A model generated the notes under the pieces. It saw nothing but the letters and a program-made list of their open reading frames with translations, did not search any database and was not told where the DNA came from. The position numbers were made by a program, and so were the translations under genes. From assembly GCA_003134685.1 (NCBI GenBank), contig PLCA01000003.1, positions 124,001 through 188,000 of the forward strand: 64,000 nt of DNA, in the 5' to 3' direction. Positions 48,661 to 61,162 of this stretch are shown here, piece after piece (the first letter of the stretch is position 1; every line of letters starts with the position of its first letter). The stretch comes from Gemmatimonadota bacterium. GTDB taxonomy: Bacteria > Gemmatimonadota > Gemmatimonadetes > Gemmatimonadales > Gemmatimonadaceae.

Positions 48661-49131
48661 ATGGATAACCGCCTAATTCTCCCCCTGCTGTGTGCCGCAG
48701 CCTCAGTCGCCTTCGCCGCCGCTCCCTTTTCCCACGCTGAAAAGCCGATCGCCACAGCGAAGCACGCCGTTGAAAAGACAGCCCCGATCGTCACCACATT
48801 CGACATTACGCGACCCAAGAACGATGCGGACAAGCTCCGCTTCACCCTCAACGTCCGCAACAACACGTCGAAGATGCTCGAGATTCAGTTCCCCGACGGT
48901 CAGACCCACGACTTCGCGGTGAAGGATTTCGCCGGCAAGGAAGTGTGGCGCTGGAGTCATGGCCGCATGTTCACGTCGGCGATGCGCAGCGAAACTCTGA
49001 AGGGCAAAGGCGAGACAGCGTTCGAGGAGAGCTGGAACTCTAAGGGCCAGCACGGATCATTTACCGCCGTAGCGGTTCTCCGAAGCAACAACTTCCCGGT
49101 CGAGAGCACGGTTCAGTTCGTCCTGCCATAG
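48661..49131 (+). CDS. Secreted BsuPI-domain protein
   Basis: A 156-aa protein starting at ATG 48661 (72 nt downstream of a longer in-frame start), chosen because the signal peptide LPLLCAAASVAFAAAPFSHA follows directly. The mature part matches the BsuPI proteinase-inhibitor-like fold: FTLNVRNNTSKMLEI, DGQTHDFAVKDFAGKEVWRWSHGR and a late SFTAVAVLRS strand. Such domains are not all inhibitors; here it is a periplasmic protein of unknown partner. A classic intrinsic terminator follows. Confidence 0.75.
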   Translation: MDNRLILPLLCAAASVAFAAAPFSHAEKPIATAKHAVEKTAPIVTTFDITRPKNDADKLRFTLNVRNNTSKMLEIQFPDGQTHDFAVKDFAGKEVWRWSHGRMFTSAMRSETLKGKGETAFEESWNSKGQHGSFTAVAVLRSNNFPVESTVQFVLP

Positions 49132-49154
49132 GTACGCACCGTTTCGCGACAACT

Positions 49155-49185
49155 AACCCGATCAATACATGATCGGGTTTTTTTT
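49155..49185 (+). terminator. Intrinsic terminator after the BsuPI-domain gene
   Basis: A perfect 10-bp stem (AACCCGATCA 49155-49164, TGATCGGGTT 49170-49179) with a 5-nt loop, ending in a T-run (to 49185). It is a textbook Rho-independent terminator 24 nt past the stop. Confidence 0.85.
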
Positions 49186-49244
49186 CGGCCGCGAGACTGA
49201 GGCACAGGCGCGTTGCGCCCGCTGGCCGGCACCTGTCTACAATC

Positions 49245-50036
49245 ATGAGACTTCTACCACTGGCGCTTGCATCGACGGCTGTCCTCGCCCTCGCCGCATG
49301 TGAGCGTCCAACGGGACCCGAGCTCGTTGCGAGGATAGACCAGGCCGAGCGGGACATGCTGTCGGACACCACCGCCGAACGCACGATGACCTGGAATTTT
49401 GCCGGGAGCTGGGAATTGATCAGGCTTCTGCCCAACGGTCGCGTCGAGCCAAACCTTCTTGCCAACATCGATGGCAAGGAGCATCGGTTCAAGGCGTTTG
49501 TGTTCGAGCGCGTGGTCATCCGCTTCGACCAAAGTGACGGCTATTCATGCCCCCTCCAGCTTCGCGAGCTGCTCGCGATAGAGGGAGGCAGCCAGGGCTT
49601 CATGCTCAAAGGCTCGGACTTCAGTCAACCCATAGGCGAGAGTTCATACTGTCAGCAAAGTGTCGCCAATTTCGGAGGCGCTTCGGGGGCGGCACCGACT
49701 TTCTGGGTGGCACGACCGGGCAATGCCCTCGGCATGGTGGGAGTGTCGGGAAACGCACGCATCGATGACGCCGCTAGAACCGGCGACTGCAGCTTCCTCA
49801 AAGTCGACCGGAGCTTCCCGCTCAAAGTCGACTGCGAGCTCCGGGACTACGAAGTCCAACTGGCCGTCAGAACACGAACGGGGAAGGACGGTCCATTGAA
49901 TGGTCTTTTGGCGGCGAAGCCGTTCTTCACCGTGTCCACTCAGCGCGTTCCCGGACTTCGGCTCGTAATCCATTGTGACAAGAAACCGGATACGATCGGC
50001 GGCTGCGAGCCCGTGCCAGGCCGATCGCGGGAGTAG
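49245..50036 (+). CDS. Uncharacterised lipoprotein
   Basis: A 263-aa protein with lipobox LAAC (Cys19). The mature part is predicted beta-rich with several cysteines (YSCPLQL, YCQQSV, GDCSF, DCELR, HCDKK, GGCEP), which could form disulfides in the periplasm. I see no recognisable domain. It follows the terminator, so it must have its own promoter, and it converges on the receptor-Kelch gene; a 12-bp palindrome (TCTCGATCGAGA, 50040-50051) lies in the gap. Confidence 0.6.
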   Translation: MRLLPLALASTAVLALAACERPTGPELVARIDQAERDMLSDTTAERTMTWNFAGSWELIRLLPNGRVEPNLLANIDGKEHRFKAFVFERVVIRFDQSDGYSCPLQLRELLAIEGGSQGFMLKGSDFSQPIGESSYCQQSVANFGGASGAAPTFWVARPGNALGMVGVSGNARIDDAARTGDCSFLKVDRSFPLKVDCELRDYEVQLAVRTRTGKDGPLNGLLAAKPFFTVSTQRVPGLRLVIHCDKKPDTIGGCEPVPGRSRE

Positions 50037-50111
50037 AATCTCGATCGAGAGTGCGCCAACGTGACGAATGGCCGACAAACGATGCAACGCTAAGCTCCGC
50101 GCGATCGACCG

Positions 50112-53100
50112 TCAGGGCCTGCGACAGTCCGCGTCGAACCGCTCGACCAATGTGCTCCCCGCCGCCGAGTGACTCGCGGCCACGACGGGATTGCCCCCAA
50201 TCAAATAGACGCTGTTGCCAAGTAGCGCGGCCCGCGCGTAGTTCCGCGCGCTGGGCATCGGTTGCGCGGTGCGCCACCCGGTCCCGCTCGAATCCAGTCT
50301 CAGGACGTCGCTGAGCACAGCGTTCTTCGCCTGCGACTCTCCGCCGAAGACGTAGATCGTACCGCAATAAAGCGCCGCACCCGCGGTACCACGCGGTTCG
50401 ACGGGCGGGCCTTCCCCCCAACGGTCGGTCGCGGGATCGTAGATGTAGACGTTTCCGAAATCCGACCCGCCACTGCGCCCGCCGATCGCGTACAGTTTTC
50501 CGTTGAATGCAACGGCTGCGGGACTTCCTTCCGAGCGCGGAAGCGGCGCGCGCTCGGTCCAGGTGTTGGCCCCGGGATCGTACTCGGAATGATCCGCGAG
50601 CGTCGACCGCGAGTTTCCGCCACCAACGACGTGAATCTTTCCGTCGAGCACCGCCGCCGCGTGACCGCCCCTCGGTGCTGGCAGTGGGGCTGCATTGCTC
50701 CACACGTGGGTCGCGATGTCGTAGACCAACACTTCGGTGGTGGGAACGTTGGTGACCGTCTTGAAGCCGCCGATGACATAGATGCGCTGGCCGATGGCGA
50801 CAGCGGCGGGCGCGTTCAACCCCTCGCCCGGCAAACTCGTCTCGTCGCGCCACTGATTGCCGTCGTAGCGTTCCACCTGCAACACCGGTGCGCCCCCTTC
50901 ACCGGTTCCCCCAATCGCGTAAATCGCGTCCCCGGTGCTGACGATCGCATGCGCGGAGCGGGCATGGAGCATTGGTGCCGCGCCGTGCCATGATTCCGCG
51001 ACTGACTCCGGCGCGCTCGCAGAAGGAGCTTGAGTAGGCTTCTTGGCGAACGTCACCGGATGATCGAACTGCCACTGGCTGTGCTCCCGCTCCTTCATCG
51101 GAACGCCCAGCATGCTCTTGAACATCGGCATCAGCTCCCGCTGAGACGGTGTCACGATCGCGCCCGCGATCTCCGGCTGCTCCCAGAAGACCTTCCAGTA
51201 CATCTTCTGCGTCGCCTGCACGCTATCCAGCTCCGCCTTTCCCGCCCCACCCTGCCCGACCGCGAGGAACTGACCTAACGGCACGTACAGCTCCCGCACG
51301 CGCGCCGAGAACACTGAATCGGCGCTCTCGAGCGATGCCACCTGCGCCTTGCTCAGGAACAGCGAATCGCTCTGCTCGATCAGCATCTTGTGGATACTGG
51401 AAGTGTTCGACAGATAAAACGCGGCGAGCGAATCGGCCGAGCGGCGTTGCCAGCCCACTGATCCCTTCACCGGTTCCACCGCGCGCCGCAGCTGCTGCAG
51501 ATCGAAGTCAGTAGACAGGTTGAACGAGAAATCGATCACGATCCGGAAGGGATTCCTCAGCAGCGTCCGCGCCGGACGCGTGTCCGCGAATCGCGGATTC
51601 ACGTCGTAGTTGAATCTCCCGTTCGCCGCATCGAACCCGCTCGGAATGAGCAGCACCGGATCCGCCGCCGCGGGCGATCCCCAGCCACGCAGCGCATTCC
51701 CGTGCAACAGCTGGTCTACTCCCGCCAGCACATTCTGGAGATAGACGTTGGGCGTCACACGATAGCCCCAGCGTTTGGGCGTCGGCGGACTCCACTGGAT
51801 GTTGAGCGACTCCGTCCATGGCCCCCTGCACCCATTCCTGGGCGCCACTCTGCCCAGGTTAGCGAGCAGACAACCCCGCGCAGTCGGAGAGCCAGTGGCG
51901 AGGAGCGTACGCAGCTCGCCCGCCAGATTCGCATCCGTCTCCGTCGCGGGATTCGGAATGAACGCGCGATCCCCGCTCAATCCGTCGCCATTCACATCGC
52001 CCTGCACAAGCGGCGTGAATGGCAATCCCGATTGCGCCCGGGCAAACAGCGTCACCGTTCCTATCTTTCCCGTCGAGAACGCGCTCGACACCACGAAGAT
52101 ATGATGTGCATCGTTCGGTCCAGCCGCCCACTCGAGCAAACGTGGATCCCCGAACGCCGCGCCATCGAACCCGCGGTACTTGCGCTTCGTCGCCTGCAGC
52201 GTGTAGGAAACCGATCCGTAGAACGACGCGCCGCCCCTGAACGTGAACACGTCGGGCGACAGCGCGACGTTGAGCTGCCCGCCATACCCGCGCAGATCGC
52301 TCACGCGGCTGGCCACTCGGCCGTACTGATCCGACCTCCTCGACTCCACGGCGGACACGGCTCCGCTCGCGGGATCGATCGACGCCTCTGACACGAAGAC
52401 CGGACGATTCGCTTCACCGGCAAGCGTCAGCTTGCTCACGCCGCTGAAGTTCGCGTCCACCACTCCGGGCTGTGAGAGATCGTACGACCCGAGAGTGCCC
52501 ACGCGAAGGAGCCAGCCCCTCATGCTCGTGTTCCAATCGAGCGACGCGCGCCAGCTCCTCGGCACATCGTACGATGGATCAATCAGCGTCACGGCCGGCG
52601 CGCGATCCGATAACACCCCGCTGCCGTCCACACACTGCGTGGGTATCGAGCCAGGATCCGTGGCGAACAGCGACCAATCAGGAGTCGGCACCGCGGCGCC
52701 CACGCAGTTGAGAAACGACGTGCCGCCCGGGAGACCTGTTGACGCCGCAGCGTCAGCGAGAATGCCCGGATGCAACAAGTCGCGAAATTCTCCGATTCCA
52801 CCGCGGAGCGTGCCCGACATGCTTCGATAGTATCGCCCGGTATTGTTCTGCATCGTGCCGGAGCCGTTGTCCCTGTCGCGATTGTAGGTGAAGGTGAAGC
52901 CGACGCGCGGACTCAGATGAACGCGCGACGGCGCGACTCCCGTGCGGACGCCGAGCGCCTGCTCGAGCGCCGTGTTTCTGGCCGGCTTGTCGCCGAATCC
53001 GTCCGCCTCCAGTCGCGCGCCGTAGAGGAGACTGAAGTAGCGCGACGGCGCGAAGTTGTGCGCGAGCGCGGTCGCGGCGTTCCACACCCGTCCTTCGCGC

Positions 53101-54758
53101 GTGGGTTGCGACAGCGTGCGCGAGAAGCTGCTCGCGCGTCCAGCCGTGAAATCTTCGATCGAGTTGAAGGCGAAGCTACCGAGTCCGTTCGAGAATCCCT
53201 CCTCGCGTTGACCATCCAGGCGGCCCCACAGCAGTCCCTTGAACCGGTGCGTTCTGCCGTGGGCGTTCCACTCCGTTTGATTCCCCGCTTCGAGCGTCCA
53301 GCGCGATTCCTCGGTCGGCAGGAAAGATCCGCCGCCCAACAGGAGTGAGCCGACGTCGGTCCCGCCGCCGATATCGTCGGAGCGGACAAGCACCGTCGCT
53401 CCCGGCAACGTCTGATACGGGGACACAGTCGTGCGTACGCCGCTCACCGCGACGCGGGTCTCGTTGAGCGTTCTCCGCCCCGGGCCGAGGTACGAACCGA
53501 GCGTAAGCTGCGCTCCCAGTGTGCGCTCTCGCCGCTCGCTGGCGGCGGACGGGGCGGAGAGCGGTCCGAAGCCCAGCGCGCCATCGCGGGTGAATCCGGC
53601 GTAGCTGGTCAGCGCGCGTGTGCTCAGCGTGTCGCGCGTGTCGTCGAGGCGTCCGAGCCAGGTGACCGCGTCGTGCTGGCGATTTGTCGGCACCCCGGAG
53701 GCGGCGAGAGAAAAGCCGGGCGGAGTGGCGAAAGCAATGAGGCGCGCGACAGAGTCGGGCGCGACGCCGGCGTTGATCAGCGACTGAGCGTCGGCATTGA
53801 GCAGCGTCGATGGCTCGCTCAGCGATCGCCCGAGGTCGAGAGCGACATTGTACGTCATCGCCCCGCGAATGAGCTCGCCGTCGGCGCCGACGCTTCCGCG
53901 GGCGCCGCCACTCGTCGCGCCAAGAGAGCGGCCGGTGGCGTCGGTGAACTGGAGATAGCGTGGATCGAAGGTGAGGAAAGCGTTCCGGCGCTGGTAATTG
54001 CGATCGCCCGGCCCGAGGCGCACGTCTACGTTCACGCCGGAGAATCCGCCGCGCGTCGGATCGAACGTAGCGCCGGTGACGCGCGTTTCGGTGCGCGCTG
54101 CGCGCGGAATCGAGCCGGCGGCGAGCCCCATTCCATTCAGAGTGTTGAGATTGGACTCTGATCCCGCGCCGAGGATTGCGGGCCCGCTCCCTGTCATGGT
54201 GACGTTGGACATTGTGCCGGCGATAGCGCCGAGGTCACCGGCGACCGTGAGCGGAATCTGACCGTTGACGCCATCGCCCCACTTCTCGGCCGAGCCCGTC
54301 TCGAGCTGCGTGGGGCCGATCGAATTGTCGGCGCGAACGGGTTTTCTTCCCTCGATTTTCACGGCGTCGAGTGTCGCGACCGGCGCGCGCGGAAGAACGA
54401 AGTTGGCGACCAGCTCGTGCTCGTCCGCCTGTCGCTGCACGCGACGCCGCGCCGAGGAGAATCCGGCGGCACTGACGTAGACGAGATAGTCGCCGGTGCC
54501 CTGATCGAAGCGGACATTGAAGTTGCCGGCGCTGTCAGTGGTGGCTTGTTGCGTGAGCCGGTCGGGACCGCGTGTCACCATGACGGTGGCGACTATTGCG
54601 CGCGAAGAATCGTCGGTTACCCGTCCGCGGATTACGTCGGGGTTGGTGCCCTGCGCTTGCGCCATTCCCGCCGCGAGCTGCAGCGAGACAGTCCCAAGGG
54701 CCAGGCAACGCGCGACTACGCGTGCGCGTTGAGCGAATCGAGTTTTGTTTGACGCCAT
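50112..54758 (-). CDS. Oar/TonB-receptor-like outer-membrane protein fused to a C-terminal Kelch propeller
   Basis: A 1548-aa protein in one unbroken frame. After the signal peptide (cleavage near MAQAQ, residue 36) come a carboxypeptidase-regulatory-like domain (IRGRVTDDSSRAIVATV, residues 42-115), a plug-like region (115-240) and a long beta-barrel (about 240-1085) with Oar-type features. A helical segment rich in SADS/ESADSVFSARVREL follows (about 1090-1240). The end (about 1255-1545) has six Kelch repeats, each with a double-glycine turn such as AIGGTGEG, YVIGGFK and FGGESQA. The fusion puts a propeller after the barrel, so the last barrel strand is not the protein end. It may bind surface carbohydrate or protein. 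Confidence 0.8.
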   Translation of the reverse strand: MASNKTRFAQRARVVARCLALGTVSLQLAAGMAQAQGTNPDVIRGRVTDDSSRAIVATVMVTRGPDRLTQQATTDSAGNFNVRFDQGTGDYLVYVSAAGFSSARRRVQRQADEHELVANFVLPRAPVATLDAVKIEGRKPVRADNSIGPTQLETGSAEKWGDGVNGQIPLTVAGDLGAIAGTMSNVTMTGSGPAILGAGSESNLNTLNGMGLAAGSIPRAARTETRVTGATFDPTRGGFSGVNVDVRLGPGDRNYQRRNAFLTFDPRYLQFTDATGRSLGATSGGARGSVGADGELIRGAMTYNVALDLGRSLSEPSTLLNADAQSLINAGVAPDSVARLIAFATPPGFSLAASGVPTNRQHDAVTWLGRLDDTRDTLSTRALTSYAGFTRDGALGFGPLSAPSAASERRERTLGAQLTLGSYLGPGRRTLNETRVAVSGVRTTVSPYQTLPGATVLVRSDDIGGGTDVGSLLLGGGSFLPTEESRWTLEAGNQTEWNAHGRTHRFKGLLWGRLDGQREEGFSNGLGSFAFNSIEDFTAGRASSFSRTLSQPTREGRVWNAATALAHNFAPSRYFSLLYGARLEADGFGDKPARNTALEQALGVRTGVAPSRVHLSPRVGFTFTYNRDRDNGSGTMQNNTGRYYRSMSGTLRGGIGEFRDLLHPGILADAAASTGLPGGTSFLNCVGAAVPTPDWSLFATDPGSIPTQCVDGSGVLSDRAPAVTLIDPSYDVPRSWRASLDWNTSMRGWLLRVGTLGSYDLSQPGVVDANFSGVSKLTLAGEANRPVFVSEASIDPASGAVSAVESRRSDQYGRVASRVSDLRGYGGQLNVALSPDVFTFRGGASFYGSVSYTLQATKRKYRGFDGAAFGDPRLLEWAAGPNDAHHIFVVSSAFSTGKIGTVTLFARAQSGLPFTPLVQGDVNGDGLSGDRAFIPNPATETDANLAGELRTLLATGSPTARGCLLANLGRVAPRNGCRGPWTESLNIQWSPPTPKRWGYRVTPNVYLQNVLAGVDQLLHGNALRGWGSPAAADPVLLIPSGFDAANGRFNYDVNPRFADTRPARTLLRNPFRIVIDFSFNLSTDFDLQQLRRAVEPVKGSVGWQRRSADSLAAFYLSNTSSIHKMLIEQSDSLFLSKAQVASLESADSVFSARVRELYVPLGQFLAVGQGGAGKAELDSVQATQKMYWKVFWEQPEIAGAIVTPSQRELMPMFKSMLGVPMKEREHSQWQFDHPVTFAKKPTQAPSASAPESVAESWHGAAPMLHARSAHAIVSTGDAIYAIGGTGEGGAPVLQVERYDGNQWRDETSLPGEGLNAPAAVAIGQRIYVIGGFKTVTNVPTTEVLVYDIATHVWSNAAPLPAPRGGHAAAVLDGKIHVVGGGNSRSTLADHSEYDPGANTWTERAPLPRSEGSPAAVAFNGKLYAIGGRSGGSDFGNVYIYDPATDRWGEGPPVEPRGTAGAALYCGTIYVFGGESQAKNAVLSDVLRLDSSGTGWRTAQPMPSARNYARAALLGNSVYLIGGNPVVAASHSAAGSTLVERFDADCRRP

Positions 54759-57994: not shown

Positions 57995-60900
57995 ATGGTC
58001 ATGCTTCGCGCACTAGGGAAGGCCGAGATCGACACGGGTGTGGCGACATTGACTCCGTCACAGGAGATGGTGTTCGCGACCGCGTTGTATCTGATCCTCG
58101 AGCGCGGGAAGAGTGTGAGCCGAAAGCGCCTCGCCGCCCTGCTCTGGCCGCGGGTGGAGGAGAAACCACGGGCGCACCGGCTCCGCCAAACGATACTGCA
58201 GTTGAAGAAGGTCGGATTCGTGGTGACGGCTGATCGAGACACTCTACAGTGCTCGCCGCATGACTCCGCGAGCGATATCGTCACGCTCTCCGCAGCCTCA
58301 GATTCCGACGCTCTCGCCGCACCTGCCTCCTTGGAGTTCTTGCCCGGGTACAATCCGACTTTTTCCGACGCCTTTCGGGATTGGGTAGATGGGCACCGCG
58401 AAGAGACGCACGCGCTTGTGACGAGGCGCCTCGTGACTGAGATCAACTCGGCGAGGTCAAAGGGGGACTGGTTGACCTGCGACAAATTCGCGAGGCAATG
58501 CCTCAAGCTCGATCCATTCAACGAGTCGGCCGTGCTCGCTCAAGCCGAAGCCAGCGCAGTGAGGGGTGCCAAGACACAGGCAATCCAGATACTGGACCGA
58601 TACCTGGCCGAAGTCGGATCGGACAATCCGAATCTGAGCGTGTCGGCCTCCGTGCTGCGAAGGCGCATCACTGACCGAATCCCGGAGCGCTCGCCGATCA
58701 CTGTCCGAGAGTGCGCCTTTGTCGGGAGAGATCAGGAGATGGAAACGTTGACTTCGGCGCTGGTCGCGGCGCGTCGCGGTAGAGGAGGGGCGCGGCTTGT
58801 AAGGGGAGAGGCCGGCATCGGCAAGAGCAGGCTTGCTTCCGAATTGATCAAGTTCGCGATCCTGGAGGGAGTCCAAACAACCAGGGCGACTTGTCGCAGA
58901 TCAGATGTCGATCGGCCGCTATCGGTCTTTGTCGATCTCGTTCCGCAATTGAGCGAGTTGCGTGGTGCGCTGGGGTGCTCACAGGAAACCATGTCCGTTC
59001 TCAAAGGACTGACAGAGTTTGACGGTCGAGCCACGTTCAGTGCGCCATCGGTCGACGACTCGATGAGTGCGCACGCAAGGATGCGCGCGGCGCTCTTCGA
59101 CTTGCTCGATGCGGTCGCAGACGAAAGGTCTGTGCTTGTCGTCGTCGACGATGTGCAATGGTTGGACGCCTCGTCCGTCAGATTGCTGGCAGAGTTGCTT
59201 CCGTGGGCAAAGACGAGAAAAATTCTTTTCGTCCTGACGGAACGCGCCGGCACCAAGGGCCTGGCAAGTCATCTCTCGCCAGACGATTTGAGGCTGCTGA
59301 CCGTTGGACCTCTTGGGCCTCAGTTCGGCGAGGCGATCATGACAGAGGTCCTCAAGGAGAGTCCCCGACCAACCACCTCGGAACTCATTCGGCGACTCCT
59401 CTCGGTCGGGGAAGGCAATCCCTTCTTTCTGAGGGAATTGGGCAATCATTGGATGGAGACCGGCAAGGATCGTGGCTCACCGCCGTCAGTCACTTCAATT
59501 ATTGACGAACGACTCGCGCGACTATCCAATGAGTCTCTTCTGGTCTTGCAGGCCTGCGCTGTGCTCGATGTAAATGCGACGATCGAGCGCGTGGAGGGAG
59601 TACTGGAATACCAGTCACACGTGCTGCTTTCGGCTGTTCAGGAACTGAGTGTCGCAGGCATGTTGCGCGCCGAGACCCAACCGTGTGTGTCGCCTGATGA
59701 ACCTTTGACCGTCGGCCATGATTTGATCTCAACCGCCGCGCTTAAACGACTTGCGAGGGTGCCCATAGCGTTTTTGCATCGGCGTGCGGGTACAGTCCTG
59801 GAGCGCGAGACTCTCGGTAATAGTGCGAGAACCGGCGTATTATGGGCCTGCGCATTCCATTGGCAGAATGCTGGGGATCGCGAGCGCGCCTTTCGCGCTG
59901 CGTGTGCTTGCGCGGAGCATCTTCTAACGGTTGGTCTGCCACGCGACGCTGCGCGAGCGTTTGAACAGGTTCTCGACTATTGCGTAACCGATGAACAACG
60001 GCTCCTCGTGTTCTCTCGACTGGCCATATCGCTCCAGACCTGCGGACAATGGGAGCAGTCAATAAAGGTCTTGCGCAAAGCACGGAGCGTGCAGACGAAG
60101 GCGACTCCGAACGCCACCGCTCACGACGAGGTTGAACTGGCTCTCTTTGAGACCCGATGGCGGGCGACGATGGAGCACGCCGCATTATTTGAGGATCTCA
60201 AAGCGTGCGTCAATAGTAGCGAAGCATCAGCGAGTCATCGTGTGGCCTGCGGTCTGTTGGGCATGAAGATTGGCTCCGAACAAAATCAGTTCGACGCTTT
60301 CAAGCAGCTGTACTTCACGATAGCGCCCCTCCTAAGCCACCCAACAATTGGTCCCGTAACGCGCATGGAAGTAGAAATGATCTATCACACAAGTTGCGGG
60401 GATATGAAAACGGCGGAACAAGTCGCAGATCAACTTCTTAGAACAGTTCGCACGGAGCGCGATCCGCGCGTCCTTTCACGAGCACTAGGCAACGTCGGCA
60501 CCGCATATCGAAGGATTGGCCGAGACGCCGACGCCGTAACTGTTTTTCTTGAGGCACTGGATCACTCAGTAGCACATGGACTCGTAAACCGTACGTCGTT
60601 TGCTATCTCCGCGCTTGTTCGAATCTACATCGCCAACGGAGAGCTTTCGCGGGCACGAGCCGCGATGCAAAAGCTTGAGGCTCTCACGGATGGTGATGAG
60701 AGCCTGTATCGCAATGCAGATCGTTGTTATTTCGCAACCAGACTCGCGTTGGAAGAGGGGAACATTGAGGAGGCCGAGAAGAGGTATTCGGTGTTGGCAT
60801 CGCAGTCAGGTCTTCCAAGCGTAAATTGGCGAGCCGGAGTCGTAGCCCTCGGAGTACGGATTGCACTTCAACAGAATGCTTCTGTCGAGACAATCCGCCC

Positions 60901-61162
60901 GATGGTAGCCGAGCTCGAAGCCGCACATTTGCAGAATCGAAGCTCAGGTGGGGAGGATTTCGAAGCTTATGCGTTGGCACTAGGCCTCTTGCACTGCGGA
61001 GAGTCTCAGCAATGCTTGCGTTTGCTCTCTGAGTACACTTCGACGTATCGGCGCGAGAAGTGGGGGCTACCGCAACAGCTTAGCGACCTGCTGTTCGAAC
61101 TGCGAGCAGGCCAACGGACTTCGACCGCGCGAAGTACTGAGGCTCTTTCCGCCTTAGTCTGA
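57995..61162 (+). CDS. AfsR/SARP-like transcriptional regulator with AAA+ ATPase and TPR domains
   Basis: A 1055-aa cytoplasmic regulator; GAGG precedes ATG 57995. Domains in order: a winged-helix DNA-binding region (residues 1-90), a bacterial transcriptional activator domain (BTAD, to about 230), a STAND/AAA-type ATPase with GEAGIGKSR (Lys277) and Walker B VVVDDVQWLD, and TPR-like repeats to the end. Such proteins switch on target genes when the ATPase senses a ligand. Base composition is less GC-rich than neighbouring genes, a hint of transfer. The divergent serine hydrolase is a possible target. Ligand unknown. Confidence 0.8.
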   Translation: MVMLRALGKAEIDTGVATLTPSQEMVFATALYLILERGKSVSRKRLAALLWPRVEEKPRAHRLRQTILQLKKVGFVVTADRDTLQCSPHDSASDIVTLSAASDSDALAAPASLEFLPGYNPTFSDAFRDWVDGHREETHALVTRRLVTEINSARSKGDWLTCDKFARQCLKLDPFNESAVLAQAEASAVRGAKTQAIQILDRYLAEVGSDNPNLSVSASVLRRRITDRIPERSPITVRECAFVGRDQEMETLTSALVAARRGRGGARLVRGEAGIGKSRLASELIKFAILEGVQTTRATCRRSDVDRPLSVFVDLVPQLSELRGALGCSQETMSVLKGLTEFDGRATFSAPSVDDSMSAHARMRAALFDLLDAVADERSVLVVVDDVQWLDASSVRLLAELLPWAKTRKILFVLTERAGTKGLASHLSPDDLRLLTVGPLGPQFGEAIMTEVLKESPRPTTSELIRRLLSVGEGNPFFLRELGNHWMETGKDRGSPPSVTSIIDERLARLSNESLLVLQACAVLDVNATIERVEGVLEYQSHVLLSAVQELSVAGMLRAETQPCVSPDEPLTVGHDLISTAALKRLARVPIAFLHRRAGTVLERETLGNSARTGVLWACAFHWQNAGDRERAFRAACACAEHLLTVGLPRDAARAFEQVLDYCVTDEQRLLVFSRLAISLQTCGQWEQSIKVLRKARSVQTKATPNATAHDEVELALFETRWRATMEHAALFEDLKACVNSSEASASHRVACGLLGMKIGSEQNQFDAFKQLYFTIAPLLSHPTIGPVTRMEVEMIYHTSCGDMKTAEQVADQLLRTVRTERDPRVLSRALGNVGTAYRRIGRDADAVTVFLEALDHSVAHGLVNRTSFAISALVRIYIANGELSRARAAMQKLEALTDGDESLYRNADRCYFATRLALEEGNIEEAEKRYSVLASQSGLPSVNWRAGVVALGVRIALQQNASVETIRPMVAELEAAHLQNRSSGGEDFEAYALALGLLHCGESQQCLRLLSEYTSTYRREKWGLPQQLSDLLFELRAGQRTSTARSTEALSALV

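Follow-up and report, generated by a model that had tools for sequence, protein, structure and literature searches.

Does the gene at positions 50112-54758 of the window (the whole stretch of 64,000 nucleotides that was analysed) really encode a TonB-receptor-like barrel that continues into a Kelch propeller and, if so, on which side of the outer membrane does the propeller lie and what might it do there? The gene, whose host is a soil bacterium of the Gemmatimonadota, lies on the minus strand and is one open frame, ATG to stop, of 1548 amino acids without stop or frameshift. Its product runs from a signal peptide through a carboxypeptidase-regulatory domain, a plug with a 22-strand barrel and a helical domain to a six-bladed Kelch propeller. 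The original prediction of barrel, helical segment and Kelch in one unbroken frame is thus borne out, the same frame being present in a second species (G016). A limited search of the open literature found nothing relevant on Kelch joined with TonB receptors, so that within this search the claim of an undescribed domain order also stands. The single frame, the fold of each part, the end of the barrel, conservation, selection and distribution were all established computationally. The features are:

50112..54758, minus strand: whole gene, TonB-receptor-like barrel with LTXXQ-like tail and Kelch propeller (open reading frame, Pfam, models)
54651..54758, minus strand: signal peptide, residues 1-36, ending ...GMAQA before Q (reading of the sequence; orthologues align from residue 1-40)
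54393..54632, minus strand: carboxypeptidase regulatory-like domain, residues 43-122, PF13620 (Pfam, E 5.8e-12)
51516..54314, minus strand: plug and 22-strand barrel, residues ~149-1081 (model; VIA-align against whole BtuB and Cir)
51519..51548, minus strand: last barrel strand, residues 1071-1080, FRIVIDFSFN, internal and not C-terminal (model, VIA-align)
51045..51506, minus strand: helical tail, residues ~1085-1238, LTXXQ/Spy-like, common to the receptor family (family alignment, profiles, model)
50994..51044, minus strand: linker, residues ~1239-1255, corresponding to the natural C-terminus of Kelch-less orthologues, ...KPKPN or ...KTKPN and stop (orthologue comparison)
50115..50993, minus strand: six-bladed Kelch propeller, residues 1256-1548 (Pfam, model, structure search)

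Structure was predicted in two parts, residues 60-1255 and the Kelch alone. The first part models as a TonB-dependent-transporter barrel (pLDDT 80.7, with 29 orthologues and paralogues in the alignment) in which, by our own count, there are 22 long barrel strands. VIA-align matches it to Cir, BtuB and other transporters at Z 27-31, model positions 90-1022 being matched at Z 30-31 to BtuB (7-594) and Cir (32-663) over their complete lengths; the predicted receptor-like barrel is confirmed by this whole-length match and by the model, which together display the 22-strand barrel and N-terminal plug characteristic of a TonB-dependent transporter. Pfam gives the 1548-residue protein no direct match to PF00593, PF07715 or PF25183 at E 0.1; a barrel paralogue from its own genome (L007), which matches nearly the whole receptor and is 34% identical over the barrel, matches PF25183 at 1e-39 and Plug at 0.0027. 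In our best explanation the product would be an Oar-like, TonB-dependent outer-membrane importer of a family expanded in the Gemmatimonadota. In that alignment the last strand, which ends at residue 1081, finishes level with the final residues of BtuB (594) and Cir (663). It is thus the counterpart of the true C-terminus in known transporters, and the 467 residues beyond it, close to the "about 460" first estimated, are post-barrel sequence.

An internal last strand had been presented as the surprising feature of this protein. It is not, because the whole receptor family ends in a helical domain: orthologues and paralogues across the order close with a comparable tail bearing two LTxxQ-like motifs, so that an extension beyond the barrel is normal here. 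Residues L31, Q35 and Q102 are invariant among 17 tails aligned. PF07813 (LTXXQ) scores above its 24.3-bit cut-off on paralogue tails (G006:C288, G012:C23, G037:C18, G008:C124 and G010:C307); the divergent tail of the 1548-residue protein itself has no LTXXQ match by Pfam. Aligned by hhalign with stand-alone LTXXQ proteins of the same genomes, mixed orthologue and paralogue tails give E 2.9e-6, and orthologue tails only a non-significant 0.016. Among PDB sequences the tail profile is matched best, though weakly, by Spy (E 0.009), and Spy-like folds were not among the matches listed in structure searches, which were filled by barrel and Kelch. Long-frame paralogues (G035, G053, G041) were considered as bearers of other C-terminal fusions and rejected, their frames ending in an LTXXQ-like tail. 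Over the C-terminal 100-150 residues of L007, L010-L037 and L121-L123, an LTXXQ/Spy-like domain behind the barrel seems general in Gemmatimonadota Oar-like receptors. Judged from these sequences, the new and local part of the protein is the Kelch alone, the post-barrel helical domain being common to the receptor family.

The six Kelch repeats claimed for the C-terminus are confirmed by Pfam, which matches residues 1256-1548 (PF24681 at 4e-43, PF01344 at 2e-42, and five Kelch_1 stretches) with repeats spanning about 1260 to 1530, and by a model of 24 strands in six blades with pLDDT 92.9. Repeats with GG and conserved Y/W are present, as are the six four-stranded blades of a Kelch propeller, and the closest structures are the KLHL and Keap1 Kelch domains (Z 35-37) and designed Kelch proteins. 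Membership of the NanM (N-acetylneuraminate epimerase) family was rejected on NCBIfam scores of 49.3 bits against a cut-off of 416 for PRK14131 and 45 against 256 for TIGR03547. A second Kelch gene was not reported from the protein's own genome. Taking as pocket loops those that follow the blades' conserved R and GG, a definition of our own drawn from knowledge of Keap1, we found that of 59 positions in the loops of the propeller face 40 are invariant, whereas elsewhere 80 of 224 are (p 9e-6; Gemmatimonadota and Burkholderiales sequences, fused copies included), and the fused copies keep 18 of 18 polar loop residues. Loop invariance across phyla favours a conserved ligand site on this face, with H1270, N1315, H1366, N1382, R1428, E1474 and R1509 as its predicted lining.

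Whether the fusion is genuine turns largely on a separate MAG, G016 (JADGQU010000181.1), which carries the same fusion; DNA identity is 86%, and 1048 codons were compared without a gap. Between the two species dN/dS is 0.09 for the barrel, 0.13 for the tail and 0.12 for the Kelch, at dS ~0.5. That sequencing or assembly had fused two neighbouring genes, one of two objections that the original prediction raised against itself, would agree with the lack of Kelch in most orthologues, but an independent genome with the same ungapped frame under purifying selection makes it scarcely credible. The other objection, absence of the Kelch from all orthologues, is answered by the same genome, though most orthologues do lack it: the receptor bears a Kelch in 2 of the 19 genomes searched in the genus, and 12 orthologues, 53-97% identical, stop just after the tail, before the Kelch, for which reason we rejected the idea that this receptor generally carries a Kelch. 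In the Gemmatirosa kalamazoonensis orthologue (NZ_CP007130.1:823408-827043), 63% identical over barrel and tail but Kelch-less, the match ends at query residue 1243. The G014 orthologue, at 96% DNA identity, also has no Kelch and ends ...KTKPN with two stops, followed by a terminator-like hairpin and, directly behind, a BsuPI-domain gene; the G014 draft has frameshifts, but they do not account for the absence of 1.9 kb at a clean junction. Given so similar an orthologue, the receptor can do without the Kelch. Of the other long Kelch frames present in the order (G038, G240, G243, G236), none was receptor-like in the parts read.

The Kelch joins where orthologues end, without the hairpin seen after the G014 stop. 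Both points count against a transient, nearly neutral loss of the stop codon that merely appended a functionless downstream Kelch gene, as do the low dN/dS of the Kelch at this divergence and the complete retention of its polar loop residues; the rarity of the fusion in the genus and its absence from G014, the closest relative of the source species, would fit such an event, which we nevertheless regard as very improbable. The fusion is genuine, found in two species, kept by selection and taxonomically narrow. Because unfused G014 is closer to the source species than fused G016 is, either G014 would have lost the fused form when an unfused allele replaced it by exchange, or that form would have been transferred between species.

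The interval from the ancestral receptor stop to the BsuPI-domain gene (49131-51046) is variable: here it holds the Kelch and an exported ORF, in G016 the Kelch and unrelated DNA, in G005 ~2 kb with a PepSY-type membrane-protein-like gene, and in G014 nothing. The exported ORF (49245-50036, plus strand) encodes a 263-residue lipoprotein-like protein with no Pfam or NCBIfam match and, among the loci compared, occurs only beside the source species' fused Kelch. Further along, 57995-61162 (plus strand) encodes a large regulator that has AAA_16 and TPR regions, looks SARP/AfsR-like and is divergent from a beta-lactamase-family gene; a 43%-identical regulator is directly divergent to the orthologous receptor of G017 (L053).

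Related Kelch sequences, at E 1e-38 or better, occur in 4 of 179 genomes of the family. One, in a species of the same genus (G011), is 75% identical and fused to a PQQ quinoprotein (912 amino acids; L050:6232-8970, minus strand, G011:C2), starting exactly at the point where quinoprotein homologues from that genus terminate, ...IAFALPRP and stop. An ORF resembling an IS110-type transposase (L050:4718-5593) lies ~0.6 kb from this gene. Stand-alone copies are found in G439, G049, Burkholderiales (L068, L069, L071, G525, G715) and an Anaerolineales MAG (L070), and every relative in the subfamily whose N-terminus was read either carries an export signal or lipobox or forms part of a fusion with an exported protein. 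In the tree the subfamily stands far from other Kelch proteins (100/100) and the two receptor-fused copies group together (97/99); the G011 Kelch falls with them, provided that the branch leading to the stand-alone copies (92/86) can be relied on. In Albitalea terrae a TonB receptor gene is followed, two genes downstream on that strand, by one for a stand-alone Kelch lipoprotein. The row there (L069:2625-6879) consists of the receptor, a small exported protein that is DUF1579-like by appearance and the Kelch lipoprotein, the last two of which recur in L071. A consistent operon of TonB receptor and Kelch was rejected, this being the one such locus among the stand-alone loci examined, with varying neighbours; a receptor neighbour at one locus makes for a weak functional link.

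The original prediction left the propeller either in the periplasm or at the surface, and the sequence evidence, as far as it reaches, decides between these alternatives. An even strand number and an LTXXQ/Spy-like tail would together place the C-terminus in the periplasm, Spy and CpxP being periplasmic proteins; the homology of the barrel end to the periplasmic C-terminus of BtuB and the exported Kelch relatives point the same way, so that the periplasmic half of the claim is strengthened and the propeller probably lies there. A propeller protein can serve as the surface lipoprotein of a TonB receptor, as BtuG does on BtuB in Bacteroides, which lends some plausibility to a surface-exposed Kelch acting as an adhesin or ligand-catching head. 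But 22 strands leave both ends of the barrel periplasmic, the last strand ends as in BtuB and Cir, and the tail is LTXXQ/Spy-like, and we consider surface exposure very unlikely.

What the propeller does can be proposed along the same lines. The receptor's C-terminus would be periplasmic and ordinarily close with the LTXXQ/Spy-like helical domain; in the lineage of the source species and G016, a separate exported or lipoprotein Kelch would have been fused in frame to this natural C-terminus. Joined at that point, the propeller would hang on the periplasmic side of the receptor pore, where it might bind or convert a small molecule or peptide let in by the receptor, a pairing for which NanC and NanM of E. 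coli set a precedent. We hold this best explanation as a whole, a Kelch module tethered to an importer, with an even degree of belief, its coupling to import being hypothetical. An alternative that remains strong, although we would not bet on it, is that the Kelch does a periplasmic job of its own unrelated to the cargo, the receptor simply replacing a lipid anchor or signal peptide. The lipoprotein-like nature of stand-alone relatives (G049, G439, L069, L070, L071), the varied genes beside them and the closely related module on an unrelated quinoprotein in G011 all suit a mere change of anchor; the G011 host, a PQQ dehydrogenase-like protein without an evident anchor, suits it less, as does the stand-alone copy near a TonB receptor in Albitalea terrae. 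Extending the tethered-module explanation, we would tentatively entertain, at less than even, the idea that a periplasmic Kelch module moves horizontally and becomes attached, at the natural C-terminus, to envelope proteins that are unrelated to one another: a TonB-type importer in two species and a PQQ dehydrogenase in another. The receptor here would then be the first importer to have a periplasmic Kelch covalently joined to it that receives or converts its ligand. The locus would offer a natural example of an outer-membrane importer with a periplasmic acceptor or enzyme attached, for which an almost identical species without the Kelch is a ready-made control. More generally, a chaperone-like periplasmic domain behind the barrel appears to be a feature of importers in this Gemmatimonadota receptor family.

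Set against known systems, the protein shares its signal peptide, CarboxypepD_reg domain, plug and 22-strand barrel with BtuB, Cir and the Oar-like OMP_b-brl_4 proteins (PF25183); unlike them it has 467 post-barrel residues, comprising the LTXXQ-like domain, a family trait, and the Kelch, seen otherwise only in G016. OmpA too has an internal last strand with a periplasmic domain behind it, a location that is probable in the present case; its barrel, however, is 8-stranded and its extra domain binds peptidoglycan. The tail resembles Spy and CpxP (PF07813) in its two LTxxQ-type motifs in register and its helical model but is tethered behind a barrel, and its own copy goes undetected by the Pfam model. 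KLHL and Keap1 have the same six-bladed Kelch fold but are eukaryotic cytosolic ubiquitin-ligase adaptors, and the likeness implies no common function. In E. coli the Kelch mutarotase NanM and the outer-membrane channel NanC are encoded in one operon (PMC3658417). There too outer-membrane import is partnered with a periplasmic Kelch propeller, but NanC and NanM are separate proteins and NanC is a porin, not a TonB receptor.
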